A stretch of DNA of 32,036 bases from a candidate division WOR-3 bacterium (GCA_039803925.1 JBDRZL010000021.1:1-32036), one strand, 5' to 3'. Counted from the first letter of the stretch, positions 17,653-32,036 are shown. Numbers and translations: made by a program. Notes: generated by a model from the letters alone, not told the origin.

Positions 17653-18000
17653 ATGTTTGATTTAACACCTCAGCAGGAATTCTTATACATAAGACTTTCA
17701 AGTTATGTTTTGCTTTTAGCAGTATTTTTGTTATGGTTTTCCTTTCTCTTAACCGGGATAATAGCAAGGAGATTTGAAAAGGTTTTAAGACTCAAAACTG
17801 GATGGCTTTTTATAATGGTTGCTCCAACAGGACTATTTCTTTATGGAATATTTTTCCTTTATTCTGCTTTTCAGGGTAAGGTAAAAATGAGTCCTGAAAT
17901 GACTTTGATTTCTTACACACTTTTTTTTATTGGAGGTCTTTTAACCTTTATAAGTTTCAGGAGTTTTTTGAATGTGGTAAAGGGAGGGTTTAAAAGATGA
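17653..18000 (+). CDS. small three-helix membrane protein, unknown
   Basis: I do not recognise this 115-residue protein. It has three hydrophobic segments (about 15-38, 48-71 and 83-105) joined by short basic loops such as ARRFEKVLRLKTG, which by the positive-inside rule should face the cytosol. There is no cysteine, no enzyme motif and no lipobox. It overlaps the next gene by four bases (ATGA), and that gene has the same size and topology, so the two may form a heterodimer. Its place between ftsE and exbB suggests a role at the envelope, perhaps as an accessory to one of these machines, but this is inference. A leaderless promoter box lies five bases before its ATG. Confidence 0.75.
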   Translation: MFDLTPQQEFLYIRLSSYVLLLAVFLLWFSFLLTGIIARRFEKVLRLKTGWLFIMVAPTGLFLYGIFFLYSAFQGKVKMSPEMTLISYTLFFIGGLLTFISFRSFLNVVKGGFKR

Positions 18001-18347
18001 AATTTGATTTAAGGGCTGAACTTTTATTTTTTGCAGGAACAATTTTATTTATGTTTTCTCTTTTTTATTTTTCAGGAATTCTTTCCAGGATGCTTTCTAT
18101 TTTAAGAAAGCCAAGGTTTCTTACTCTTTTTCCAATGTTGGGTGCAATTTCTCTCCTTTTTGCTTCTCTGATTCATTTTTATAAAATTATTTTTGTATAT
18201 CCAAGATTGAAGGTTGCAGGTTTTGAACTTTTTGAAATTTTACTTAATTCTTTTCAACTCACTTTTTTAGAAAATTTACTTTTCCTTATAAGTGCTTTCT
18301 TTTCCTTTTTTGCAACATCTATTTATCTTTACTGGGTCTCAAGATGA
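17997..18347 (+). CDS. second small three-helix membrane protein, unknown
   Basis: This 116-residue protein has three hydrophobic segments (about 8-30, 42-63 and 88-113), with a basic loop RMLSILRKPRF after the first. It shares size, topology and overlap with the preceding gene but little obvious sequence, so I cannot say whether they are paralogues. No known domain is seen. The stop at 18345-18347 is followed by the exbB promoter within six bases. Confidence 0.72.
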   Translation: MKFDLRAELLFFAGTILFMFSLFYFSGILSRMLSILRKPRFLTLFPMLGAISLLFASLIHFYKIIFVYPRLKVAGFELFEILLNSFQLTFLENLLFLISAFFSFFATSIYLYWVSR

Positions 18348-18381: not shown

Positions 18382-18422
18382 ACATCTTGGTTCAATTCCA
18401 GAAAATCCTTTTAAAAACTAAA

Positions 18423-19091
18423 ATGAAAGGTATAATTCCAATTTTGTTAATCCACCAGGCACAAGGTGTGGTGCAGGGAATGGTTGATTATTTCCATAAA
18501 GGTGGAGGAGTAATGTGGCTTCTTTTAATTGTAGCAATTCTTGCCCTTGCAGTTATTATCGAAAGGTTTTACACATTATTCAGATTAAGGGTAAATCCAA
18601 GAAAGTTTGTGGTGGAAGTAATTGATATTATTGAGGGTGAAGGGGTTGGTGCAGCAATGGAGTTTTGTTCAAGAAATGCTTCAGTTGTGGCGAAAATCTG
18701 CCAGGCTGCTCTTGAAAAAGCAGGGGAATCAAGGGAAATAATTGAGGAAAATGTGGCAAGAAGGGCATCAGTAGAGCTTGCTTTTCTTGACAGGGGTATG
18801 TTATGGCTTGCTTCCTTTTCCACACTTGCTCCTATTTTGGGTTTCTTGGGAACAGTTACAGGTATGATAAGGGCTTTTGCAGCAGTGGCTGCAGCAGGTG
18901 AGGTAGAACCTACCCTTGTTGCTTCAGGAATTTCGGAAGCTCTGATTACAACAGCAACAGGTCTTTTGATAGCTGCTCCTATTGTGGTTTTTCATACATT
19001 TTTCTCTTCAAGGATAAATGCCTTCTCAAGAGAGATGGAGGAAGCAGCAAATACTTTAATTGAATACATTCTTGAATCCAAGGTAAAATAA
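18423..19091 (+). CDS. exbB: ExbB/TolQ/MotA-type proton-channel subunit
   Basis: The protein has 222 residues from ATG 18423. It has a short periplasmic start, helix 1 (VMWLLLIVAILALAVIIERF), a cytosolic domain with the ALEKAGESREIIEENVARRA helix, and helices 2 and 3 with the family signature STLAPILGFLGTVTGMIRAF and ALITTATGLLIAAPIVVFH. ExbB pentamers with ExbD use the proton gradient to drive TonB. Two exbD genes and tonB follow, which makes ExbB more likely than TolQ. The alternative start TTG 18387 would add 12 residues (VQFQKILLKTK) and would fit a leaderless transcript; ATG 18423 gives a more usual N terminus but has no Shine-Dalgarno. Confidence 0.88.
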   Translation: MKGIIPILLIHQAQGVVQGMVDYFHKGGGVMWLLLIVAILALAVIIERFYTLFRLRVNPRKFVVEVIDIIEGEGVGAAMEFCSRNASVVAKICQAALEKAGESREIIEENVARRASVELAFLDRGMLWLASFSTLAPILGFLGTVTGMIRAFAAVAAAGEVEPTLVASGISEALITTATGLLIAAPIVVFHTFFSSRINAFSREMEEAANTLIEYILESKVK

Positions 19092-19095
19092 TAGT

Positions 19096-19602
19096 ATGCC
19101 TGTTATAGGGAAGAAAATAAAGTATGAGCCTGAAATTCCGACAGCCTCAATGGCTGATATTGCTTTCCTATTGATCATATTTTTTATGGTTACTACAATT
19201 TTCTCAAGGGATAGAGGTTTAAAACTTATTTTGCCTGAAAAATCGGAAGAAAGTGTTGTAAAAATTAAAAAGGAGAATCTTTTATCCATATTCATAAATC
19301 CTGAAGGTAAAATTTTCTTAAGGGATGAATTAACTGAGACTCCTTTTAGTGATTTGAGAAGAAGAATAAAAGAGGATATACTTAACAATCCTGATAAAAT
19401 TGTTATTTTTATTAAAACGAATGTTAAGGCACCTTATAATGTAATGATAGATGTATTTGATGAAGTTTTACTTGCCTATGAAAAAGCTGATTCAACAATG
19501 TGGAAAAGAGGACTCCTTGACAAGAATGGAAATGGAATATTAGATGAGGATGAAAGAATTCCAAGGAAAATTTCTATTAAAGGAATTGGAGAGGAAACAT
19601 GA
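19096..19602 (+). CDS. exbD: ExbD-type protein carrying an EF-hand loop
   Basis: This 168-residue ExbD has the single helix with the conserved ion-path aspartate (TASMADIAFLLIIFFMVTT, Asp21) and a periplasmic domain with SIFINPEGKIFLR, FIKTNVKAPYNVMIDVFDEV and a final strand RKISIKG. Between the last helix and this strand is an insertion with DKNGNGILDEDE (142-153), which fits every ligand position of a 12-residue EF-hand loop: D, N, N at 1, 3 and 5, Gly at 6, D at 9 and E at 12. Ordinary ExbD proteins are about 140 residues, as is the next gene. Calcium binding in the periplasm is inferred. It starts four bases after exbB and overlaps the second exbD by four. Confidence 0.88.
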   Translation: MPVIGKKIKYEPEIPTASMADIAFLLIIFFMVTTIFSRDRGLKLILPEKSEESVVKIKKENLLSIFINPEGKIFLRDELTETPFSDLRRRIKEDILNNPDKIVIFIKTNVKAPYNVMIDVFDEVLLAYEKADSTMWKRGLLDKNGNGILDEDERIPRKISIKGIGEET

Positions 19603-20012
19603 AGATTGAAAGGATTGAAAGACCAAGAGCAGTTATTCCAACAGCCTCAATGGCTGATATTGCATTTTTACTTATTATATTCTTTATGTTAACAACTGTT
19701 TTTAGAAAGGAAAAGGGTTTAAAGACACTCCAATTTCCTCAGGCTGAGCAGACACAGAGAATTAAGAAGCACAAGCATCTTTCTTATGTCTGGATTTCTA
19801 ATAGAGGAGATATTTTTGTTCATGATTTGCCTACTGATACAAGTTTTATCAAAAGGGAATTTCAACAACTTGTTTTTGAAGATCCCCAGCTTTTGACCAT
19901 GATAATGGCAGATAAGAGGGTGGAGTATAGGTATGTAAATATGGTAATTGAAGCCTTAAGGAGTGCGAAGGCTTTAAGGGTAAGTTTCAGAACTGATTTT
20001 GAGAAAAAATGA
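19599..20012 (+). CDS. exbD: second ExbD-type protein
   Basis: A 137-residue ExbD with the same TASMADIAFLLIIFFMLTT helix (Asp at about residue 20) and a periplasmic domain YVWISNRGDIFVHDLP, MIMADKRVEYRYVNMVIEALRSAKALRVSF. It is of usual length and lacks the EF-hand insertion of the preceding copy. ExbD works as a dimer inside an ExbB pentamer, so two different copies could form a heterodimer. Start ATG 19599 overlaps the stop of the first exbD. A new promoter for tonB begins ten bases after its stop. Confidence 0.88.
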   Translation: MKIERIERPRAVIPTASMADIAFLLIIFFMLTTVFRKEKGLKTLQFPQAEQTQRIKKHKHLSYVWISNRGDIFVHDLPTDTSFIKREFQQLVFEDPQLLTMIMADKRVEYRYVNMVIEALRSAKALRVSFRTDFEKK

Positions 20013-20021
20013 AAATTTTAA

Positions 20022-20051
20022 TTGACAAATTAATAATTTTTGCATTAAAAT
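20022..20051 (+). promoter_or_regulatory. candidate leaderless promoter of the tonB-receptor operon
   Basis: A perfect TTGACA (20022-20027) is followed after 18 bases by TAAAAT (20046-20051). The -10 box ends six bases before ATG 20058. This is the strongest promoter in the window by sequence and drives tonB and the downstream surface-protein genes, which otherwise have no clear promoters. Confidence 0.62.
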
Positions 20052-20057
20052 ACTAAA

Positions 20058-20663
20058 ATGTTTGATCCAAGAGAAAAATATGATCTTATATTTCAGATAT
20101 CCCTATCAATAACTTTAGTAATATTTATCCTTCTATTTATAGGGCTAAAAGTAAGTGTAAATCCGTATGTTTCGAAGGGTGCAAGAGAAATAATTGTTGA
20201 GAATATACAACAGGAAACTATGGAACTTGAGCTTCCTCAACCTCCACCTAAACCGAAGATAGCAGTTGAGATAGAGGAGGCTGAGCCACAGGAAGAAAAT
20301 GTCCAGGAAACGATAGGAGAGACAACGGGTGATATTGAGGAGATTATACTTCCGACCCCTGAGCCAGGTCAGGTTTTCAATGAGTTTGAAGTTGAGGAAA
20401 AGCCTGTTTTAATTAAAAAGGTTGACCCCGAATATCCAGAGGTAGCGAGGCAGCTTGGTATCCAGGGTAAGGGTAGGGCATTGGTAATAGTAGGACCTGA
20501 TGGAAGGGTGGTTAAAATTGAGAGCATAGTGGTTGATAATGAGATTTTTAGAGAACCTATAGAAAAGGCTGCATTACAGTGTATTTTTAAACCCGCAAAG
20601 CAAGCAGGTATTCCTGTTTCAGTTAGGGTTGTTATTCCTTTTATATTTAAATTAACAAAATAG
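20058..20663 (+). CDS. tonB: TonB energy-transducing protein
   Basis: The 201-residue protein has one N-terminal membrane helix (11-30), a Pro- and Glu-rich periplasmic spacer (about 55-115, with LPQPPPKPK and EEAEPQEE) and a C-terminal TonB domain (118-201) with VDPEYPEVARQLGIQGKG, VIVGPDGRVV and AALQCIFKPAKQAGIPVSVRV. TonB takes force from ExbBD and pulls on the plug of outer-membrane receptors. The spacer is more acidic than the Lys-Pro type of enterobacteria. It lies between the exbB-exbD-exbD operon and a receptor gene, which is 16 bases downstream behind AAGGAGGT. Confidence 0.92.
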   Translation: MFDPREKYDLIFQISLSITLVIFILLFIGLKVSVNPYVSKGAREIIVENIQQETMELELPQPPPKPKIAVEIEEAEPQEENVQETIGETTGDIEEIILPTPEPGQVFNEFEVEEKPVLIKKVDPEYPEVARQLGIQGKGRALVIVGPDGRVVKIESIVVDNEIFREPIEKAALQCIFKPAKQAGIPVSVRVVIPFIFKLTK

Positions 20664-20679
20664 AAAAGGAGGTAAATTT

Positions 20680-23600
20680 ATGGATCTAAAGCTAAAAAGT
20701 ATTTTCCTGCTCATAGGTGTATTTTTAACTATCCTATGGGCAGGAACAACCGGTAAAATTTCCGGTCGTGTAACAGATGCCACGACCGGTGAGGGTCTCC
20801 CTTTTGCAGTTGTTAGGTTAGTAGGAACGCAATTAGGTGCTTATACTGATGATCAAGGTTATTATGTTATTTTAAATGTTCCTCCTGGAACATACAATAT
20901 AGAGGTAACATATGCTGGTTATCAGCCAGGTCTTGTTAAAGGTGTAGTTGTTGAAGCTGATAGAACAATAGAGGTAAATATTGGTTTAAAGCCTACAACT
21001 GTTGAGGTGGAGCCAATTGTCGTTGAGGCTAAGGAAAAACTCATAAGACCAGACATTCCTGAATCAAGAAAGATAATGAAGGGTGAAGAAGTAGCCCAGA
21101 TTCCTGTTATGAATATTCAGAGTGTTGTTGAAATTTCAGTTGGTGTTGTGGAAAGGGGAGGGCTCCATATAAGGGGTTCAAGACCTGAGGAGGTTGTTTA
21201 TGTTGTGAATGGAGTTGAGGTTAGAGACCCCTTTACTGCTTTTACTGCTCCTGGAATTCCCCTTCTTGCTATGGAGGAAGCTGGTGTTTCAACGGGTGGT
21301 TTTGATGTGGATCAGGGTGCAGCAGCAGGAGGAACTATTAATTTGGTTACAAAGGGAGGTGGGGAGAAATATGATTTTGCTTACAGATTTTCCACAACAA
21401 ATTTAAGTTTCCTGGGTGATCAAATTAATGGATTTTTAAATGCAGAAAGGGGAGATTACATAAGGGACTTTTTACTTGGATATAACAGAGACTTAAAAGC
21501 TACTACAGGTAAAAGGCACAGAAGAGATGAAATCTTAAATGAATTTTCATTATCAGGTCCTATGCCCTTTTTAAATAGAAAAGCTGCTAACTTTCTTATA
21601 AGTGGTGATTATCAGACCCATAAAGGAAGGTTCCCTGTATATTCAGAAGAGAATAAGAGAGTGAAAAACTGGGGTTTATCTTTCAGGTTTGATACAAGAC
21701 TGACTCAGTATCTCCTTTTATATTTAACAGGTTTTTACAGATATGAAAGATTTGGAGAGTATGATCCTCAGTTTAGATTTATGCCTGATTTGAGGTATGA
21801 ATTTTTAAGGAGAATGAGGAGTTTTTCAGGTGGTATTAACTGGCTTGTAGCTCAGAAGTATATGAATGAGATAAATTTTGGTTATTTTGGAAGGGATTTA
21901 AAGAGGAATATTTTTGAGGATATAGATAAAGATGGTGTTGATGATTTTGATGATAGGGATCTTGATGGATTTCCTGAAATAGACATTGATTATTTTAAGA
22001 GAGTTTATTATGATTCAATTAAGGGTAAGTGGATTATAGATAACAATTACTGGTATGGAATAGATTCGGTTGCTAAAATGACCAAGGTTGATAGGAAATA
22101 TTTTAATGTGAATGAAAAAGAGGGTTATGTCGAGCTTCCTTTCTACTGGTGGGAAGATTTTGTTTATGGTTTTTATCCTGGTCAGAGTGCTGCACATCCT
22201 GAATGGTGGCCAACTGATCCAGGAGCCCCTTTAAACAGATATGGATGGGGGCAGAGTTTTGTTCAGGATTTTGATGTTATTGTAGTTAAGTTGCCAAACG
22301 GTAAAATTGATACTTTTGTAGATATGCAGGGTGTGATTTATCCTTATCCAATTAAACCGGATTGGCTCTTTTTTGAGAATGAAAGAATAGATTCTCTTCC
22401 TTTAGGCTCACAGATTTTGGATACAATTCTTTCTGTTGGTAATCTTTATTTACCATATCCTCACAATTTTGAGAGGGACCAGTGGGGTTATTTAAGAAAT
22501 TCTCATCTTACCTTTTCCTGGAAGATGACAGCTCAGCTTACAAAGAAAACAAAAACTGCTCCAGGTCATGAACTTTTAGTTGGTGCTGAATATAAAAAGA
22601 TTAATTTGATGGTTTATGATGTGGATTTTGCTTCAGGTGGAAATATTTATCTCCAGATGGTTAATCCGCCACTTTCAAAAAGACCCTTTGATACAACTTA
22701 TAATTTTGTTGATTTTCTGAATTCCCATAAAGTTAAACCCTATCAGGTAGCCTTTTATCTCAGAGATAAAATTGAAATGGAAGGAATGTGGGCAAGGGTT
22801 GGTGTGAGGTTTGATCTAATAGATAATGATGGATACTATTCACCGATTCTTGAATCAAAACCACAGGAAGCATTTATAACAGATCCTGTTTATGGAGTGA
22901 GATATTTCTCAGAGGCAGAAAATACAAAACCTTACTGGATAATATCCCCGAGAGTTGGTGTTTCTCATCCGATTACTGAGAGAGATGTTCTGCATTTTAC
23001 CTATGGACATTATTATCAGATACCGCCTTATAACCAAACAAATTTCAATTATATTGTGACAGGTGCATTTCCAATAATTGGAAATCCAAGATTAAAACCA
23101 GAAAAGACTGTTTCTTATGAGTTAGGAGTTAAGCATGGTTTTACAACAGATTTTATAATTGATATAACAGCATTCTATAAAGATATTCAGAACTGGGCAA
23201 GGACAAAATTTTATAAAGTTGATCCATTAACAAATGTAACTACATTTTATAATGAGGATTATGGATCTTCAAGAGGAATTGGTGTTGAGATATTAAAAAG
23301 GCCAGGAGGTGTATTTATTCCCTATTTATCTTTGAATATAAACTATACCTTCCAAGTAGCAAAAGGTTCCTTTTCTTCTCCTTATCTTGGTTATTACTGG
23401 CAGTGGCTTGGTTATCCTCTTCCTCCAAAGGAATCTCCTCTTAACTGGGACCAGACCCATTCTGTAAATGCTATTTTCTCATGGATTGTTCCTCAGAATA
23501 AGAGATTTCTTGGTTTATCTGACTGGGGAGCTACGCTTCAGTTTGCTTATGGTTCTGGATTCCCATGGACACCTCCTATAAGGTCTGAGAGAGATGCAAT

Positions 23601-23862
23601 TGAACTTATTAATTCAAGAAGATTACCTTCAACAAAGAATGCAGACCTTAGGTTATTTAAGAATTTCCCTCTATGGAGAGGTAATTTACAGGTTTTTATG
23701 GATATTTATAATGTCTTTAATACAAAAAATCTTGGAGGCATTTATGATGAAAACTGGTATGACCAGTTTAAAGACCCTGAGGGTGAGGTAAAGGATTTGA
23801 GTGTATGGGAGCCGAGAAGACAGACAAGAATTGGATTTTTCTTTGAAATAGGCGGATTCTAA
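20680..23862 (+). CDS. TonB-dependent outer-membrane receptor with regulatory-like domain
   Basis: The 1060-residue protein has a signal peptide (1-21), a carboxypeptidase-regulatory-like beta-sandwich (about 24-105: GKISGRVTDATTGEGLPFAV, YYVILNVPPGTYNIEV), a TonB-box-like PIVVEA (about 113-118), a plug (about 130-225: VVERGGLHIRGSRPEEVVYV) and a long beta-barrel ending in Phe, as outer-membrane barrels do. The domain order is that of SusC/RagA-like and Oar-type receptors. Around 412-435 is an acidic DIDKDGVDDFDDRDLDG segment resembling calcium-binding thrombospondin-3 repeats. The substrate is unknown. The start follows a strong AAGGAGGT site (20666-20673). It is the first large client after tonB and probably powered by it. 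Confidence 0.9.
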   Translation: MDLKLKSIFLLIGVFLTILWAGTTGKISGRVTDATTGEGLPFAVVRLVGTQLGAYTDDQGYYVILNVPPGTYNIEVTYAGYQPGLVKGVVVEADRTIEVNIGLKPTTVEVEPIVVEAKEKLIRPDIPESRKIMKGEEVAQIPVMNIQSVVEISVGVVERGGLHIRGSRPEEVVYVVNGVEVRDPFTAFTAPGIPLLAMEEAGVSTGGFDVDQGAAAGGTINLVTKGGGEKYDFAYRFSTTNLSFLGDQINGFLNAERGDYIRDFLLGYNRDLKATTGKRHRRDEILNEFSLSGPMPFLNRKAANFLISGDYQTHKGRFPVYSEENKRVKNWGLSFRFDTRLTQYLLLYLTGFYRYERFGEYDPQFRFMPDLRYEFLRRMRSFSGGINWLVAQKYMNEINFGYFGRDLKRNIFEDIDKDGVDDFDDRDLDGFPEIDIDYFKRVYYDSIKGKWIIDNNYWYGIDSVAKMTKVDRKYFNVNEKEGYVELPFYWWEDFVYGFYPGQSAAHPEWWPTDPGAPLNRYGWGQSFVQDFDVIVVKLPNGKIDTFVDMQGVIYPYPIKPDWLFFENERIDSLPLGSQILDTILSVGNLYLPYPHNFERDQWGYLRNSHLTFSWKMTAQLTKKTKTAPGHELLVGAEYKKINLMVYDVDFASGGNIYLQMVNPPLSKRPFDTTYNFVDFLNSHKVKPYQVAFYLRDKIEMEGMWARVGVRFDLIDNDGYYSPILESKPQEAFITDPVYGVRYFSEAENTKPYWIISPRVGVSHPITERDVLHFTYGHYYQIPPYNQTNFNYIVTGAFPIIGNPRLKPEKTVSYELGVKHGFTTDFIIDITAFYKDIQNWARTKFYKVDPLTNVTTFYNEDYGSSRGIGVEILKRPGGVFIPYLSLNINYTFQVAKGSFSSPYLGYYWQWLGYPLPPKESPLNWDQTHSVNAIFSWIVPQNKRFLGLSDWGATLQFAYGSGFPWTPPIRSERDAIELINSRRLPSTKNADLRLFKNFPLWRGNLQVFMDIYNVFNTKNLGGIYDENWYDQFKDPEGEVKDLSVWEPRRQTRIGFFFEIGGF

Positions 23863-23879
23863 AAAGGAGGAATTTAATT

Positions 23880-25982
23880 ATGAAGAGATTAATTTTTGTT
23901 TCCCTTTTGATGGTTGGGAGTGTTTTTTCCTCCAATAAAATTGCCCCTAAGTCAGGCGGAGTTCATGTTTTAAAGGGTCCTCGAGCGATATTTAACCAGA
24001 CAATACCTGAAGCCTGGAACTGGATGAGTAATTATGGATTTATGGGTGGGGAGGGTGCTGGTGGTTTATGGGGGTTATCCTGGCCTGGTGGTGCTGCTGT
24101 AAACAATTATTACTTATGGCTTTCCTATTTTCTTGTTGGGGCAAAAGTTGGCAGTGAGTATTATGTAACTCAGGCTGATTATACAGCTAATGAATGGAGT
24201 CCTTGTGAAAATTTTAAGGAGTATGTTGGTCCTGGAAAGTCAGTTGTTGATATTGTTGTGTGTTTTAATGATTGTAAGTCAAATTCAAGGAATTCCCCTG
24301 GTAGGCGTCTTGGTGTAAAGGTTTTATGGAGAGTTCTTACTTGGCCTAATGAACCATATAATGATTTTATAGCCTATGAACTTTATATAACATTTAATAA
24401 AGATTCTTCAGATATTCCTGGTATAGGAAATCAGTTAGATTCCTTTTTTGTAGGGATGTGGTATGATTGTGATGTTTCCGGTGCTGATGCAAGTAACCCG
24501 CATATTGATGATCTTGTTCATTTCACAGGTTGGACAAATAATGAGTGGAGTAATAATTTTAAATTTCCACCATATTCTGATAAGGTAAGCTTCTATGGAG
24601 TAAGAGATTCATTCTTAACTTTCTCAGATGGTATAGATGACAATTACTTCATATGGGGTGATGATGAGATGGAACATATAGGAACAACCTGTGTGTCAAA
24701 GATACCTGTTAGAAAACCGAATAATACTTATGATACTGTTTTAGGTTATCTTATTCCCTATGGTATGAGTTATATTTATGATGGAGATGATCCTGCTGTT
24801 CCTGGAAACGATGAAGGAGAGGGAGGAAAGTCTGCTGGATATTGTTTTGGAGCTTTCATTTATGCTCCTCCTTCTGTTTCTGATTCTATATGGATTGATA
24901 ATGGAGATACATGTAGGATAGTGAGACCTTTTTCCCATCAATGGTGGAACTGGGAATCTGACCCTGGAACTGACCTTGATAGATACAGATATATGAAAGG
25001 AAAACATCCTGCAACACAGGGATATAGATATGCCCCCCATCCATATGATTTAAACGCTTCAGAGTTTGATTATAGGTTTTTAAATACAGTTGGTCCATAT
25101 ACTCTTAGAAGTGGAGATACTCTGAAATTTGTATGGATTGCCGGTGTTGGTCAGGGTTTAGATGGTGGAATTGATAATTACTGGGGAAGGGGGTGGATAA
25201 GGGGAGCAAGACAAACACTTGAGTGGGCATACAGGGCATATTATGCTGGTAATCCTGGGGATCCTGCTCATCCAACTGCTCCAAAGTTTGATCCTGCGAA
25301 AGATAATCACTGGAAGATCCCGATACCGCCTCCTGCTCCTCTTTTAAAATATCAACTAACAAAAAAAGGAGTTCTTCTTGTATGGGATAATTCAGCAGAG
25401 GCTTATGTTGATCCCTTAAAGCAGAGACCTGACTTTCTACTTTACAGAGTATACAGGAGTATTTTCGAACCCAGGAATTTTTCTTTGATGGCTGAAGTTA
25501 AAAGGGACGAACTGGGAGGAATTTCCCATAGTTTTCTTGATACAACAGCACAAGTAGGATTCCCATACTTTTATGTTGTTACAGCAATGGATGAAGATTC
25601 TCTTGAATCTCCAATGGTTAATTACAAGAAAAATCCTGATGGAAGTGCGGTTCCTCTTTACATTACTACGGAACCTGCTGAAAAAGGAGATCTTTCACAG
25701 GTAAAAGTTGTTCCTAATCCTTTCCTTGGTTCAGCAAAATGGTCTGCAACTGAGTTATACAGTAAAATTGAATTTCAGAACCTTCCTCCTATTTGTAAGA
25801 TTTATATATTTACAGCCAGTGGAAAACTTGTAAAGATGCTTGACCATAAGAATTTAACAGGAACAGAATCCTGGGACCTTTTAAATGAAAATGGAGTTAA
25901 GGTTTCTTCAGGATTATATTACTATAAAGTTGAAACTCCTGAAGGTAATTCAAAGGTTGGAAAGTTTGTAATACTTGATTAA
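23880..25982 (+). CDS. secreted protein with C-terminal FlgD/Por-type sorting-like domain
   Basis: The 700-residue protein has a signal peptide (MKRLIFVSLLMVGSVFSS), a long beta-rich region with many Trp, Tyr, Asp and Gly and a few paired Cys, a fibronectin-III-like segment (about 490-590: LLVWDNSAEAYVDPLKQRPD, FPYFYVVTAMDEDS) and a C-terminal domain (about 612-700) with VKVVPNPFLGSAKW, KIYIFTASGKLVKML, SWDLLNENGVKVSSGLYYYK and a KFVILD end. This end resembles FlgD-Ig and Por secretion-tail domains that direct proteins to the type IX system in Bacteroidota. I do not recognise the main body. SD: AAGGAGG 12 bases before the start. It lies between the TonB receptor and a PorV-like barrel. Confidence 0.8.
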   Translation: MKRLIFVSLLMVGSVFSSNKIAPKSGGVHVLKGPRAIFNQTIPEAWNWMSNYGFMGGEGAGGLWGLSWPGGAAVNNYYLWLSYFLVGAKVGSEYYVTQADYTANEWSPCENFKEYVGPGKSVVDIVVCFNDCKSNSRNSPGRRLGVKVLWRVLTWPNEPYNDFIAYELYITFNKDSSDIPGIGNQLDSFFVGMWYDCDVSGADASNPHIDDLVHFTGWTNNEWSNNFKFPPYSDKVSFYGVRDSFLTFSDGIDDNYFIWGDDEMEHIGTTCVSKIPVRKPNNTYDTVLGYLIPYGMSYIYDGDDPAVPGNDEGEGGKSAGYCFGAFIYAPPSVSDSIWIDNGDTCRIVRPFSHQWWNWESDPGTDLDRYRYMKGKHPATQGYRYAPHPYDLNASEFDYRFLNTVGPYTLRSGDTLKFVWIAGVGQGLDGGIDNYWGRGWIRGARQTLEWAYRAYYAGNPGDPAHPTAPKFDPAKDNHWKIPIPPPAPLLKYQLTKKGVLLVWDNSAEAYVDPLKQRPDFLLYRVYRSIFEPRNFSLMAEVKRDELGGISHSFLDTTAQVGFPYFYVVTAMDEDSLESPMVNYKKNPDGSAVPLYITTEPAEKGDLSQVKVVPNPFLGSAKWSATELYSKIEFQNLPPICKIYIFTASGKLVKMLDHKNLTGTESWDLLNENGVKVSSGLYYYKVETPEGNSKVGKFVILD

Positions 25983-25997
25983 AAGGAGGTAATTTTA

Positions 25998-26987
25998 ATG
26001 AGAAGGTTTTTAACTTTCCTTATTTTATTCCCACTTTTGCTTTTTGCACAGCAAAAGGTGGGAAATGTGGGTGCTGATTTTCTTTCTATTCCTCTTTTGC
26101 CTGAAGCAATGTCAATGGGTGGTGCATACACTGCTGTTTCAAGTGGTGCTTCAAGTGTTTTTTGGAACCCATCTGGAACTGCTGATGTAAAAGGTTATGA
26201 AATTTATACTGGTTATACTATGTGGTTTGAAGATACAAAGGTTCCTTATTTATCTATTGTTAAAAGTCAAGGATTTTATGGTAATTTCGGTCTATTTATT
26301 TCCGGTTTCTTTACTGGAAAGATGGAGGAGTGGACAACAGATGGACCTACAGGAAACACATTCAGTTATAATGCCTATCAAATTGGATTGAATTATTCAA
26401 GATATTTTACCGATAGATTTACAGCGGGTGTATCTATTAAGATGGTTAGAGAAAATTACGGACCCTATTCTTCAACTCAGGGAGTTGCTTTTGATGCTGG
26501 AACTCTTTTTAATACTGGACTTTATACAATAAAACTTGGAATGGCATTTTTGAATCTTGGTCCTGAGCTTAAGCCCGATGGTAAATATATTCAGTATATT
26601 TATGAAGGCGGACAGATGAAGGAGAATGAAAGGGAATTTATGAGTTATCCTCTTCCAACAACCTTTAAACTGGGGCTTGCCTTTGAACCCTATACTTCAA
26701 AATTCTTAAAAGTTACGGGTGCTATTGAACTTCTTCACCCCACTGATTATAATGAGAGTTTTCATACAGGAATTAAATTTGATTTTAATACAATTTATAT
26801 TTCAACAGGATACTATTATCTTATAGGGCAGAGGGTAATAGAGGAAAAGTTTAAGGAGGGAGGTTTTTCTCTTGGCTTTGGGTTAAATGCGCCAACAAAG
26901 TTAGGAACTATAAAGATTAATTATTCCTTTAATGATATGGGAATTTTGCCTGATGTTAATAGATTTTCTATTAACTTCAGTTTATAA
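25998..26987 (+). CDS. PorV/PorQ-like (UPF0164) outer-membrane barrel protein
   Basis: The 329-residue protein has a signal peptide ending around FAQQ, then the PorV-family opening GADFLSIPLLPEAMSMGGAY followed by TAVSSGASSVFWNPSGTA, which is its clearest signature. The rest is beta-barrel-like with many aromatic strands (YEIYTGYTMWFEDTKVPYLS, TAGVSIKMVRENYG, TIYISTGYYYLIGQR) and ends NRFSINFSL. PorV in Bacteroidota carries type IX cargo from the outer-membrane pore to the attachment complex. Its position between two cargo-like proteins with C-terminal tails fits this, although no SprA, PorK, PorL, PorM or PorN gene is in the window. FadL-like transport is the alternative. Strong SD AAGGAGGT precedes the start. 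Confidence 0.85.
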   Translation: MRRFLTFLILFPLLLFAQQKVGNVGADFLSIPLLPEAMSMGGAYTAVSSGASSVFWNPSGTADVKGYEIYTGYTMWFEDTKVPYLSIVKSQGFYGNFGLFISGFFTGKMEEWTTDGPTGNTFSYNAYQIGLNYSRYFTDRFTAGVSIKMVRENYGPYSSTQGVAFDAGTLFNTGLYTIKLGMAFLNLGPELKPDGKYIQYIYEGGQMKENEREFMSYPLPTTFKLGLAFEPYTSKFLKVTGAIELLHPTDYNESFHTGIKFDFNTIYISTGYYYLIGQRVIEEKFKEGGFSLGFGLNAPTKLGTIKINYSFNDMGILPDVNRFSINFSL

Positions 26988-27000
26988 AGGAGGTTAAAAA

Positions 27001-30000
27001 ATGAAGAAGTTATTTTTGTTATCATTGATACTTTTTTTGCCTTTACATTCTTATACAATAGGTCAAAAAAAATCACAAATCTTCTTAAGATGGGGTATAA
27101 CACTTGCTTTTTATCCTCAGGATGTAATTGCAAGGGTGATTGACAGAGTTCAATATGAAGAAGGAGGAACTTTAAAAGATCTTAACTTTGTTGTATGGAC
27201 TCCTTATGAGAAAATTTTAGTAAAAAGATTTAAAATTAATAAAATATCCGGTAATTTACCTCAAAGGAAATATGGATGGTTAATAGCTTCTGGAATAGGT
27301 ATTTATAGAACAGCTTCTCTTGATAATACAAATCTTCTTGCCTTTTCAAAGATTATTCCTGGTAAAATAATTGATTTTGACGTATCATATAAAAAGAGTG
27401 GTTCAGTTTATATCCCTCAAAATGTTTTTTGTGTGGACTCTTTGGGAGATATTTTACTATATAATTCAACAACAAATACTGTTTCAGTAATAGACACGAA
27501 TCATAATGCCTTATCAATTTCTCTTGTGCCTGGAAAGATTGATACTATTATTTACGTTGGAAGAAGTGATGGTGTCTATTTTGCTAAAATTAATGACAAT
27601 TATCAGACTTGGAATAAAGTTGGTGATCTAAGTGAGAGAGTGAATATTCTTTATGCAACAAGTTCCTTTATTCTTGCTGCTACCCCTTCAGGTTTATTTA
27701 GATGGGATGGAACAAACTGGACCCAGATAAATAATTTAACTATTAATTCAATTAAAGGGACAGGATTAACAAATAATAGAATATATATAGGGACAAGTTC
27801 AGGGGCTTATTATTCTGATGATAATGGATTAACCTGGGTTTCAATAAATGCTTTTTCTGGCAAAGATGTTATTGCACTTACTGAAAAAACTTCAGGTTCC
27901 TATCCAGGTCTTGGAACTTTCTTTGCTGTTATAAGGAATGATGGAGTTTATGATGACCTTGGAAATCATTTTACATCGGGTCTTGATGCATTTCTTAATT
28001 ATGGTGCTTTGAATGGTTTTGATGTTGAATCTGATAATTTTGGTAGAATATGGTATGCTTGTGAGGCAGGACTTTTTTATCTTAAAGATTTTGGAGGAGG
28101 TAATTACGGATGGAATTTCAATCCTGGAATTGAGGAACAGTATGACCCACAAAAACCTGAAACTTCAACTATGATAGGGGTAAATGTTGCTGATGAGATT
28201 GTAAATGCTTTCCTTTCTGCATTCAAGCCTTTATTTAATGATACTCTCTATATAGATTTAGAAAAAATCAAATCTATGTTTTTAAATTATTTTGGTGCTT
28301 CTTATCCTGAGGATACTTTTCATTTTGTTATTAACCCATACTTAGTAACTCCACCTGATCCAAATGGTAGTCCTCCTTATAAGCCTTCTGATATACTCCC
28401 TGTATCACTCTTTACTTTGCATGATAGATGGCAGGACAATCCTCAAGAGTTAAAAGATGCCATATATGTAAAAGTTGGTTTCGAACTACTTGGAAAAGTT
28501 GGTGGTTTTCTATCTCTTACAGATCTTGAAAAGAAATTTGTATTTGATTATCAGTTTGTCAACAGGGGACTCTTTAATTTGAAACCAAAGGAAAATAAGC
28601 TTGTAAGAAAAGGTTTTGCTACTCTATTAATAGGTAATTACAAATATGAGGTGGATGGAGCTCCTATAACTGGAATTCCTGGTATTTTTGATTTTACTGA
28701 ATATTATGATTCTACTGGAACCAATGTAGATATGAATAATATTTCAAAGTATCATGGGGAAGGAGAGCCTGAGGCTAATGAATTTAGCACTGCAAGAATA
28801 TTTACTCTTTTAGAATATATAAAGGAAAAGTATGGAATATCAAAAATTGACACACTCTTTAGAGACACTTCAACATCTTTAGAAAGATTTAAACCTTACA
28901 TTTCTCAATGGGCAATTGCTAATGCAAAAAAGGATTATACCTTATTTGTATCTTTCCCAAAAGAGGAATCTACAACAGAGTTGAGATATGCATTTATTGA
29001 ACAAGAGCCTTTTTCCTATGTAATTTATAATCATAATCCTGATGCAAGCACACATATTCTTAGATTAAGTTTTCCCGATGATGCTTCCTATTTTGATGCT
29101 CAGGGTAACTGGATTTCACCTATTGAGGTCTGGAATATAAATTATAAAGTTGATAATACAATAGAGGTTACTAAACTTTTCCCTGAGAATACCTTGAGAC
29201 ATACATATTCTGTTCTTTTGAATGATAATACAGTATCCTTAAAACAGCAAATTGTGGTTGTAAATACTGATCTTGAAAAGGTTTTCAGCACTGCAAGGGG
29301 AAGAGATTTAGAAGTTCCGTACCCCATTTTGATGGTTTTCCAGAACCCTGCTGTTGATAACTTTGTTGATGTATATCTCTGGAGTAGAAGAAAGGTTTAT
29401 AAGGATGTTAATGAGGAAGGTGTGGAACTAACAATTTCAGAAGGTGGAAGGGTTATTGATGTTGATGAAAATCTTACAAACCTTGCAGGTTCTGCTCCAA
29501 TTGCTCTATTTACTACATCAAAGGAACTTAAGAGGAAAAGCACTATCTATAACTTTAATGCTTATGTAGAAGATACAACAGGTAATGGAGCACAAGTTGT
29601 TATTTCTGTTCCTGTTTTTTATGTAACTGGTGGAGGGACTTTTGCTTCTTCTGATGGTTCTATTAAAGTTAATATTCCATCCAATATAAATAATTCCTTC
29701 ATGCTTACTTTTTCAAGAAATGATAAAATTGCTTTTGATTACATTGTTCCTGGTTCAGCAGAAGGTTATTCAGATATTATAACAATTGGGCAGAATGGAA
29801 AAAGAATTTCCTCTAACTTTAGAGTGGAGATTATTGATCCTTCATTGAAAAATGAGGGAGTTACCTTTTATAGATATGAAAGTGGGATTGGTTGGATTCC
29901 TGTTGAGGGAATTGTTGATAGGAACGAGGGGAAATTCCTTTTTGAGACAAACACTTTTGGAGTATTCCAGGTAAGAAGCGGTGGAGGAGGTTTAAATACT

Positions 30001-30258
30001 CCATTGATAAAAGCCCCACCTATTATTAAAAAAGAAGAGGCAAAAATTTCCTTTTATATTCCTTTTAAAAAGAATGTTGAATTATCCCTTTATAATTCAT
30101 CAGGAAGAAAGATTTCTGAATTACTTAAAGGTGAAAAAGAGCCTGGAATTTATGAATTTACTCTTAATATTCCTTCTCAGGGCACTTATTTCATAGTAGC
30201 TGATATTGATGGATTTTCAAAAATTAAAAAGAAAGTTATCGTTTTAGATTCTAAATAA
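27001..30258 (+). CDS. giant secreted protein with propeller-like repeats and C-terminal tail
   Basis: The 1085-residue protein has a signal peptide (MKKLFLLSLILFLPLHSYT), an N-terminal beta-propeller-like part (about 80-350) with repeats such as IIYVGRSDGVYFAKI, ILAATPSGLFRWDGTNWTQI and YIGTSSGAYYSDDNGLTWVS (the last an Asp-box), a middle region of unknown fold with metallopeptidase-like length but no HEXXH that I can see, a further beta-rich region, and a tail (about 1005-1085) with VELSLYNSSGRKISELLKGE, GIYEFTLNIPSQGTYFIVAD and KKVIVLD. The tail resembles the sorting-like domain of the 700-residue protein. It is likely surface-attached. I do not know its substrate. SD AAGGAGGT lies eight bases before the start. 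Confidence 0.78.
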   Translation: MKKLFLLSLILFLPLHSYTIGQKKSQIFLRWGITLAFYPQDVIARVIDRVQYEEGGTLKDLNFVVWTPYEKILVKRFKINKISGNLPQRKYGWLIASGIGIYRTASLDNTNLLAFSKIIPGKIIDFDVSYKKSGSVYIPQNVFCVDSLGDILLYNSTTNTVSVIDTNHNALSISLVPGKIDTIIYVGRSDGVYFAKINDNYQTWNKVGDLSERVNILYATSSFILAATPSGLFRWDGTNWTQINNLTINSIKGTGLTNNRIYIGTSSGAYYSDDNGLTWVSINAFSGKDVIALTEKTSGSYPGLGTFFAVIRNDGVYDDLGNHFTSGLDAFLNYGALNGFDVESDNFGRIWYACEAGLFYLKDFGGGNYGWNFNPGIEEQYDPQKPETSTMIGVNVADEIVNAFLSAFKPLFNDTLYIDLEKIKSMFLNYFGASYPEDTFHFVINPYLVTPPDPNGSPPYKPSDILPVSLFTLHDRWQDNPQELKDAIYVKVGFELLGKVGGFLSLTDLEKKFVFDYQFVNRGLFNLKPKENKLVRKGFATLLIGNYKYEVDGAPITGIPGIFDFTEYYDSTGTNVDMNNISKYHGEGEPEANEFSTARIFTLLEYIKEKYGISKIDTLFRDTSTSLERFKPYISQWAIANAKKDYTLFVSFPKEESTTELRYAFIEQEPFSYVIYNHNPDASTHILRLSFPDDASYFDAQGNWISPIEVWNINYKVDNTIEVTKLFPENTLRHTYSVLLNDNTVSLKQQIVVVNTDLEKVFSTARGRDLEVPYPILMVFQNPAVDNFVDVYLWSRRKVYKDVNEEGVELTISEGGRVIDVDENLTNLAGSAPIALFTTSKELKRKSTIYNFNAYVEDTTGNGAQVVISVPVFYVTGGGTFASSDGSIKVNIPSNINNSFMLTFSRNDKIAFDYIVPGSAEGYSDIITIGQNGKRISSNFRVEIIDPSLKNEGVTFYRYESGIGWIPVEGIVDRNEGKFLFETNTFGVFQVRSGGGGLNTPLIKAPPIIKKEEAKISFYIPFKKNVELSLYNSSGRKISELLKGEKEPGIYEFTLNIPSQGTYFIVADIDGFSKIKKKVIVLDSK

Positions 30259-30269
30259 GGAGGGTTAAA

Positions 30270-31130
30270 ATGAGAATGAAAACTTTTTTATCTTTAACTT
30301 TGGTTTCTATGATATTTCTTACAGCCTGTAAAAAGGTAGAAACTCAATTTTCACCTGAACCCTCAAGAGATGAACTTCTTAAAAAAGCGTGGTTCTATTA
30401 TGATAAGGGAGATTTTGCAAGTGCTGAATTCTGGTTTGATTCTCTTATAACATTAAACCTTCAAGATAGAGAGGCTCTTCTTGGCAAAGGCTACACGCTT
30501 ATGGAAAGAGAAAATTATGATCTTAGTTCAGCACTTTCTTATTTTTCTCTAATTCTTGCTCTTGACGGAATTTCTTTAGTTGAAAAAAGATTTAAGGAGG
30601 TTGCAACAATAGTTCAGGGTCCCTCTCTTCCATATGGAGCGACTTGGGCTATAAAAACAAAAAAGAGAAATATTGTTTGGGTATCAAGTGTGATTGAAGC
30701 ACCTGCAAATGTTAAAATTCCCTTTTATTTTGATGATACCCTTGTTTACTTTAAAGGCAGTGCTCCTGATACAGTAACTTTTATAGATTACAGCTATTAT
30801 GTGCCCCAGATGGGAACAGATGATAAATTTTTATGGGCTTGGGCAGGTATAGGATTTATATATCTTGCTCAGGACAAAAATTCACTTGCTGCTGAATACC
30901 TCTATTCTTTGGCAAAAAGAAGTAGAGCTTTTTACTTCCCACATTATCCTTTTATAAAATTTACAAATATTATTGGTTCTGCTGCTTATGCTTATTTCAA
31001 GGAAGGTCTATTCGGAAATGCAGTTGATGTTTTGAAACTTTCTGGCTGGAATGATTATCCTCAGGATCCCTTTGACCCTCTTTCCCGTTTAAAAATTCTT
31101 TTAAAAATTGAAGAGTTAATGAATGATTGA
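30270..31130 (+). CDS. lipoprotein with TPR-like repeats
   Basis: The 286-residue protein has a type II signal peptide with lipobox FLTAC (Cys20), so it should be lipidated and, in a diderm, sit in the outer membrane. After it come helical TPR-like pairs (AWFYYDKGDFASAEFWFDSL, GKGYTLMERENYDLSSALSY), then a beta-containing segment (VPFYFDD-like region about 145-180) and further helical repeats (AAEYLYSLAKRSRAF, AYAYFKEGLFGNAVDVLKLS). The position directly after two cargo-like secreted proteins and a PorV-like barrel suggests an accessory of the same surface system, in the way SusD-like or assembly lipoproteins are, but it is not SusD. ATG 30270 follows AAGGAGGG; ATG 30276 is possible. Confidence 0.82.
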   Translation: MRMKTFLSLTLVSMIFLTACKKVETQFSPEPSRDELLKKAWFYYDKGDFASAEFWFDSLITLNLQDREALLGKGYTLMERENYDLSSALSYFSLILALDGISLVEKRFKEVATIVQGPSLPYGATWAIKTKKRNIVWVSSVIEAPANVKIPFYFDDTLVYFKGSAPDTVTFIDYSYYVPQMGTDDKFLWAWAGIGFIYLAQDKNSLAAEYLYSLAKRSRAFYFPHYPFIKFTNIIGSAAYAYFKEGLFGNAVDVLKLSGWNDYPQDPFDPLSRLKILLKIEELMND

Positions 31131-31148
31131 TTAAAATTAAAAAATAAA

Positions 31149-31165
31149 ATGGGTTCAAATCCCAT
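31149..31165. repeat. hairpin shaped like a tRNA T-arm
   Basis: ATGGG (31149-31153) and CCCAT (31161-31165) can pair around the seven-base loop TTCAAAT. The GGTTCAAATCC core equals a tRNA T-arm. No other part of a tRNA is found. On the plus strand it is followed by A's and the Shine-Dalgarno of the next gene, so it is not a normal plus terminator; on the minus strand it is followed by a T-rich tract. It may be a tRNA remnant, or act on translation or messenger stability. Confidence 0.5.
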
Positions 31166-31184
31166 AAAAAAAGGAGGTTTTTAA

Positions 31185-32036
31185 ATGAGTAATTATAAAA
31201 AAATAATAGGAGGAATGCTAATAACTACATTCCTCCTTGCGGGCTATATAACTCCTACTGTGAAGACACATTTTGTTATTGAGAAAGATGTGGTGAGTTC
31301 TCTTGACTATTATCTTGCATCTCCTCCTGCATATACCACCTTAACAATAGAGTTTGTTGATACTATGCCAAACGAGTATTCAACCCTTTATACTGCTGAA
31401 AAACCAATAAATACATCACCAGACCAATCCTGTGTTTTCTTCACTTACAGAAGGTTATCAGATAATCTAAACTATCCAGGTTCAGGTTGGTTAGCTCTTA
31501 CATTTACAAAGGATGGTGGAATGACATGGAGCAGAGTATGGCCTTACAATGATGATGGTGGAGGAAGGTATCCACAGGTTGGTCCATGGATGGGTAACTG
31601 TGATACATTCATATGCTCTTATGCAAATGTATCTCCTGGTTATGGTGCTTCAATAGCAACTGTTCCATCAGATGGTGACCTCAGTCAGGGGAATATTATA
31701 AAGTATTATTATGCAACGACTACCTTTGTTGGTTTTCAGAGTTTTGCAACTGGTTCAAATGACCTTGCCAATTATGTAAACTGGATGATAGGTGCTGATA
31801 ATAACTATTTTACTCACTGGTGGTGGAGGTTAGGGTTTATTGATCCAGATCCTCCTGCAGTGGTATTTCCTAACTATCCTGGTCAAGTTTGGAATATGGA
31901 TTATTTAGGTGGAACACTTGCAGCACTTGTAAGTCCTGATACAGTAAAAGTTTCTTATGATGATGGTGCGACCTGGTCAAGTATTTTTCTTAATGTTCAG
32001 ATTCCTATTGATACATTTACTTTTTCTTATGATAAT
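31185..32036 (+). CDS. secreted Asp-box protein, cut by the window end
   Basis: The frame starts at ATG 31185 behind AAGGAGG and is open to the last base, giving 284 residues so far. A signal peptide is probable (YKKIIGGMLITTFLLAGYIT). Two Asp-box motifs, TKDGGMTW (108-115) and SYDDGATW (257-264), fit the S-x-D-x-G-x-T-W pattern seen in sialidases and other beta-propellers with BNR repeats. The Trp-, Tyr- and Gly-rich stretch between them is like the other surface proteins in this operon. Whether it is an enzyme cannot be judged without the rest. It is the seventh gene of the tonB operon, with only the hairpin between it and the lipoprotein gene. Confidence 0.8.
   Translation, partial: MSNYKKIIGGMLITTFLLAGYITPTVKTHFVIEKDVVSSLDYYLASPPAYTTLTIEFVDTMPNEYSTLYTAEKPINTSPDQSCVFFTYRRLSDNLNYPGSGWLALTFTKDGGMTWSRVWPYNDDGGGRYPQVGPWMGNCDTFICSYANVSPGYGASIATVPSDGDLSQGNIIKYYYATTTFVGFQSFATGSNDLANYVNWMIGADNNYFTHWWWRLGFIDPDPPAVVFPNYPGQVWNMDYLGGTLAALVSPDTVKVSYDDGATWSSIFLNVQIPIDTFTFSYDN

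Follow-up and report, generated by a model that had tools for sequence, protein, structure and literature searches.

A WOR-3 operon in which exbB, exbD and tonB genes are encoded with a TonB-dependent transporter, a PorV-family barrel and predicted type IX cargo

In the type IX secretion systems of Bacteroidota, where the GldLM motor has been placed, extraction of the carrier-cargo complex from the SprA translocon consumes energy (PMC10994853). SprA is known across the FCB (Fibrobacteres, Chlorobi and Bacteroidetes) phyla (PMC12611786), and type IX systems have been described as possibly present in several of these phyla (PMC11285876). Here we describe a tight operon on the + strand, exbB-exbD-exbD-tonB-TBDT-CTD1-PorV/PorQ barrel-CTD2-TPR lipoprotein-Asp-box gene, at positions 18387-32036 of a stretch of 32,036 nucleotides (GCA_039803925.1 JBDRZL010000021.1:1-32036, the window from here on). 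The stretch comes from a candidate division WOR-3 bacterium, a deep-branching organism of a hot environment that belongs to the same order as Candidatus Hydrothermus. TBDT denotes a TonB-dependent transporter, and CTD1 and CTD2 are two proteins of the operon with a type IX C-terminal domain. The genome resembles those with Bacteroidota type IX systems in its SprA translocon, PorU-like sortase, PorV-family barrels and many tails on proteins with N-terminal signal-like sequences. It differs in that GldL, GldM and GldN were not detected, and in that cargo and PorV are encoded together with ExbBD-TonB. The explanation that we favour, with moderate confidence and from sequence data, is that PorV-dependent type IX export would assemble a complex at the cell surface, centred on a TonB-powered transporter.

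The locus can also be set beside other described systems. With Oar of the Myxococcus xanthus Ton-Oar system the TBDT shares a CarboxypepD_reg extension, a TonB-box-like segment and adjacent exbB, two exbD and tonB genes; in contrast to Myxococcus, type IX tails mark the cargo here and a PorV accompanies it, and an export role of the TBDT is a candidate role only. As in SusCD uptake complexes, the TBDT gene lies next to genes for predicted surface-exposed partners, but these are predicted type IX cargo and not a SusD lipoprotein, no SusD-family match occurs in the operon, and the TBDT scores 41.7 bits against the SusC model TIGR04056 (cut-off 368.25). A SusD identity was considered for the TPR lipoprotein and rejected, as it found no support in Pfam or PDB profile matches; the profile of this lipoprotein (A4) hits TPR proteins in the PDB. 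In Flavobacterium, carriers are encoded directly downstream of type B cargo (PMC12618676). The carrier gene in our operon likewise directly follows a cargo gene, and the Flavobacterium order supports the pairing of PorV with cargo, although our carrier belongs to the PorV/PorQ family and the tails here are of type A, unlike the type B cargo and PorP/SprF-like shuttles of Flavobacterium. The genes of the operon are as follows.

18387..19091, + strand: exbB, MotA/TolQ/ExbB proton channel, TTG start (PF01618, 99.4 bits)
19096..19602, + strand: exbD copy 1, TolR/ExbD family (TIGR02801, 38 bits, under the equivalog cut-off)
19599..20012, + strand: exbD copy 2, overlapping copy 1 by 4 bases (TIGR02801, 37.4 bits)
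20058..20663, + strand: tonB (TonB_C, 41.8 bits, cut-off 24.6)
20680..23862, + strand: Oar-type TBDT (TonB_dep_Rec, 84.8 bits; CarbopepD_reg_2, 66.9 bits; PDB matches to TBDTs)
23880..25982, + strand: CTD1 (TIGR04183, 24.2 bits, cut-off 23)
25998..26987, + strand: PorV/PorQ-family outer-membrane barrel, likely cargo carrier (NF033709, 150.9 bits, cut-off 90)
27001..30258, + strand: CTD2, N-terminal half Asp-box/BNR-like, followed by the type IX C-terminal domain (TIGR04183, 24.9 bits)
30270..31130, + strand: TPR lipoprotein, lipobox LTAC; TPR matches weak, under Pfam cut-offs
31185..32036, + strand: Asp-box protein, open at the contig end

Every gene that the first-pass annotation had named is present where it was placed, so the gene content of the operon stands; the start given there, 20058, does not, as the operon begins approximately 1.7 kb earlier with exbB at 18387. 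The strong Shine-Dalgarno sites and short gaps that had been remarked upon are equally real: a site of the AAGGAGG type precedes all six genes from the TBDT onward, and intergenic gaps measure 11-17 bp from tonB through the lipoprotein. Shine-Dalgarno-like motifs occur at seven of the ten operon genes, compared with 8% of random positions. The transmembrane Asp is retained in both ExbD copies (segment ASMADIAFLL). The TBDT consists, in order, of the CarboxypepD_reg extension, the TonB-box-like EPIVVEA, the plug and the barrel, and the pattern E-x-[IV]-V-V-x-A ahead of the plug is conserved (alignment A6). CTD1 carries a signal peptide, a conserved N-domain, an FnIII-like region and the type IX C-terminal domain (alignment A2). 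At exactly 32,036 bases the contig ends inside the Asp-box gene, which is thus truncated by the assembly; the gene's intact orthologue in a genome of the same genus (L038:3288-5009) encodes 573 amino acids and ends in a type IX tail (TIGR04183, 27.8 bits).

By profile and predicted fold, the tails in the operon are type IX signal domains. TIGR04183 scores over its cut-off in both CTD1 and CTD2. A2, a profile of 18 CTD1 orthologues, matched the C-terminal domain of PorZ (5m11, E = 4e-4); its match to that of PorU (6za2, E = 0.025) is weak. The last 105 residues of CTD1 were also modelled with AlphaFold from the single sequence (predicted local distance difference test, pLDDT, of 74). In a structure search this model found PorZ as its top match (E = 1.5e-4) with PorU next, and its top 20 matches include the cargo tails 8glk_D and 8gl8_D, which are bound to the SprA translocon. 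On CTD1 the Pfam FlgD_ig score is about equal to the CHU_C score, as would be the case if the tails were generic FlgD-like immunoglobulin domains with no relation to type IX sorting. Given that TIGR04183 is above its cut-off for CTD1 and CTD2, that the fold matches are to PorZ, PorU and SprA-bound cargo tails, and that SprA and PorU are both encoded in the genome, we consider this alternative extremely improbable. A PorZ identity was considered for CTD2 itself because repeats precede its tail, and was rejected: the CTD2 profile (A5) hit BNR-repeat proteins and FlgD, not PorZ.

Tails of this kind are numerous. The Pfam tail model has 38 matches in the whole genome, 24 of them over the cut-off. 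A hydrophobic N-terminus was found in 34 of 37 tailed proteins as fetched, and two of the remaining three are merely truncated and prove hydrophobic once complete, raising the count to 36 of 37. Among other open reading frames, 71 of 126 are positive in the same test, which is a loose one, and this control set includes membrane proteins.

SprA and PorU are encoded outside the window. The genome's SprA is 1,800 amino acids long and scores 297.8 bits (equivalog cut-off 200), and a profile of 17 WOR-3 SprA sequences (A1) matches Flavobacterium SprA (6h3i) with an E value of 3.9e-130. PorU is full length and scores 381.6 bits against a cut-off of 420, which seven relatives exceed. The alignment to 6za2 shows that its His and Cys are kept, these being the residues that we take, on established knowledge of PorU, to be catalytic. 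Across the 41 WOR-3 genomes that were searched, all draft metagenome assemblies for which "no match" means none at the sensitivity of the models used here, both SprA and PorU models find matches in every genome, and PorV-family genes (NF033709) are found in 40. The type IX-like export system that had been suggested for this non-Bacteroidota lineage is therefore supported. The outcomes that would have spoken against the suggestion were a lack of core genes together with tails not enriched in exported proteins, or else the same gene set in genomes without PorV; what is found is SprA, PorU, the 38 tail matches with their signal-like N-termini, and an almost universal PorV family. A second PorU-like protein, of 1,438 amino acids and with a type IX tail, is encoded at L087:6943-13387 (G000:C19), where its neighbours are a 436-amino-acid protein and a weak PorV-family protein.

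Six PorV-family genes are present in the genome of the window, and in four of them the start either overlaps a tailed gene's end or lies at most 15 bp from it. The profile of the operon's PorV (A3) matches the SprA-bound PorV 6h3i_F with an E value of 3.6e-22. Several points weigh against the favoured explanation. The operon's PorV falls under the strict equivalog cut-offs for both PorV (43 bits, cut-off 250) and PorQ (82 bits, cut-off 220), so that its carrier role is based on family membership only; single-sequence AlphaFold modelling of this protein gave a pLDDT of 34 and the model was not used; and for the N-domain of CTD1 neither solved structures nor Pfam yield a known relative.

Across the class the genes keep the order exbB-exbD-exbD-tonB-TBDT-CTD1-PorV-CTD2-TPR, CTD1 and the TBDT being the best conserved members. 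Sequence identity outside the genus is approximately 25-60%, and the conservation of order is far beyond chance. The co-occurrence in relatives that the first-pass annotation had proposed to check is thus borne out. From the positions of ExbB and TBDT matches, exbB lies a short way upstream of the TBDT in all 26 high-quality genomes. In G003, G005, G006, G008, G011, G016 and G019, the exbB of this operon is the sole ExbB-family gene; G006, G011, G016 and G019 are among the complete genomes with a single such gene. The best relative of CTD1 was also located in 17 genomes outside the WOR-3 set, from lineages including Marinimicrobia, Fermentibacteria, Zixibacteria, Eisenbacteria, Gemmatimonadota, Krumholzibacteriota, Calditrichota and Cloacimonadota. 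In 13 of the 17 a TBDT and a PorV-family gene both flank it, and 16 have one or both of these neighbours. The TBDT-CTD-PorV core is found in at least seven other phyla, and in one Fermentibacteria genome the Ton genes sit between the TBDT and CTD1.

Under the favoured explanation, CTD1, CTD2 and the Asp-box protein would reach the periplasm via Sec by means of their signal peptides. Their type IX tails would then hand them through SprA to the adjacent PorV/PorQ barrel, the putative carrier or anchor of the tailed proteins, and tail processing may fall to PorU, which is encoded elsewhere. Once at the surface, the cargo proteins would join the Oar-type TBDT in an envelope-spanning complex, with the ExbB-ExbD-ExbD-TonB of the operon driving the TBDT with the proton motive force. 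What the sequences establish are the genes, their families, the tail fold, the conserved gene set, and the occurrence of SprA, PorU and tailed cargo with no GldL, GldM or GldN detected. We infer the carriage of these cargoes by the operon's PorV, their assembly with the TBDT, and a substrate for the TBDT.

By homology search, the usual motor of the Bacteroidota system is not found in this lineage. For GldM there are two weak matches among the 41 WOR-3 genomes, neither credible, nor did any match turn up in another 46 genomes with SprA, which come mostly from other phyla, were reached via their SprA loci and have no completeness values attached. The GldM search works, as seen from a positive control that scores 575 bits in a chromosome fragment of Parabacteroides distasonis. 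(The P. distasonis "plasmids" NZ_OY725747-NZ_OY725769 are apparently chromosome pieces, carrying rpmH, ruvA, rpoN and sprA, and in one case gldM.) GldL gave only weak matches in the 41 genomes, mostly to the coiled-coil half (best 23.8 bits), and GldN gave none in the 41, both with models that lack a positive control; GldK was not searched. Of the core homologues that had been proposed as a check, SprA was thus found while PorL, PorM and PorN were not. The absence of GldL, GldM and GldN extends to G011, a genome of four contigs and 99% completeness in which SprA and PorU are readily found. No statement that the motor is missing in FCB phyla was found in the literature, in a search that excluded most subscription papers and all preprints.

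It is possible that nothing is missing: an ordinary type IX system with divergent GldKLMN could stand beside an ordinary TonB uptake operon with surface components that by coincidence employ type IX. Sequence conservation may be lower in GldL and GldM than in SprA, the gap in the GldK search and the lack of controls for the GldL and GldN models leave room for such proteins, and FCB phyla are already said to have type IX components (PMC11285876). However, the absence is uniform over the 41 genomes, the nearly complete G011 included, and we regard this account as distinctly unlikely.

Outside Bacteroidota, ExbBD-TonB might replace GldLM by supplying the proton-motive energy for freeing the PorV-cargo complex from SprA, either directly or via the Oar-type TBDT. 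Pulling carrier and cargo off SprA needs energy (PMC10994853). GldL, GldM and GldN went unfound in the WOR-3 genomes, as did GldM in the 46 SprA-bearing ones; exbB adjoins the TBDT in all of the good genomes and is the sole ExbB-family gene in several complete ones; and the operon couples a motor to PorV and tailed cargo. On the other hand, none of the 19 SprA sequences examined has a TonB-box-like motif, the adjacent TBDT is the obvious client of the motor, and a highly divergent GldLM could escape the search. This replacement is a tentative idea, and we judge it unlikely. ExbBD-TonB may merely power the adjacent TBDT, and the "TonB-powered" display of the first-pass annotation is unproven, while its "type IX-like" label is supported; as a whole, that interpretation is partly supported.

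The TBDT could also export proteins itself, with its own Ton system and independently of SprA. The precedent is Myxococcus Oar, which shares this architecture, is served by Ton genes comprising one exbB, two exbD and a tonB, and is required for the secretion of PopC (PMC6434023). Yet type IX tails and a PorV are found among the neighbours of our TBDT, and the known exit for these is SprA, whereas PopC has no described tail, and the Oar-like architecture is present in 28% of TBDTs and so is a weak sign of export. We find this route very improbable, and return to PorV-dependent type IX export around a TonB-powered transporter as the explanation that we favour.

Other loci with Ton or ExbB-type genes were observed. 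A second Ton operon (L254:1054-10258, at approximately 129-138 kb of G000:C1) encodes a FlgD-tailed protein, a PorV-family barrel, a 927-amino-acid TPR protein, exbB, exbD, exbD, a long TonB and a 285-amino-acid protein. Most of the relatives examined preserve its order, and the operon is absent where a single ExbB exists; it could be another energy module for carriers. The 927-amino-acid protein scores 93.9 bits against the SprE/PorW model (cut-off 250), and generic TPR models score higher. A third ExbB-type locus (L255:2886-6936, G000:C6) is Tol-Pal, with Pal, a YbgF-like protein, TolQ, TolR, a TolA-like protein and TolB, all named by eye except for the ExbB-family match. In one family (L068:3799-6372, G011), PorV is followed by a 507-amino-acid protein that appears by eye to be a clostripain-type protease, and the N-domain of CTD1 differs. 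In the window, a pair of small hydrophobic proteins (115 and 116 amino acids) is encoded directly before exbB (17653-18347), and in the synteny scan this pair was detected only in the genus, family and order of the window (G001-G004). A fragment of a transposase-like integrase core at 1762-2121, identified by eye only, is likely a mobile-element remnant. Among the database records, that of Thermotogota bacterium L_MaxBin.031 is identical to the WOR-3 relative G036 in the region compared (L203 and L058), and its name is apparently wrong.

In current models carrier and cargo are drawn off SprA by a hub that GldLM drives, and the motor figures in reviews as part of the system. If GldLM is indeed missing from phyla that have SprA, PorU, PorV and tailed cargo, the motor would be a later addition of Bacteroidota, or else another motor would be at work. 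The operon described here offers a concrete candidate for such a motor, ExbBD-TonB, together with its partners TBDT, CTD1 and PorV, and what powers type IX secretion outside Bacteroidota thus becomes a testable question. Since the TBDT-CTD1-PorV core recurs in several FCB phyla, the question could be put to a cultured relative, for example in Calditrichota or Gemmatimonadota.

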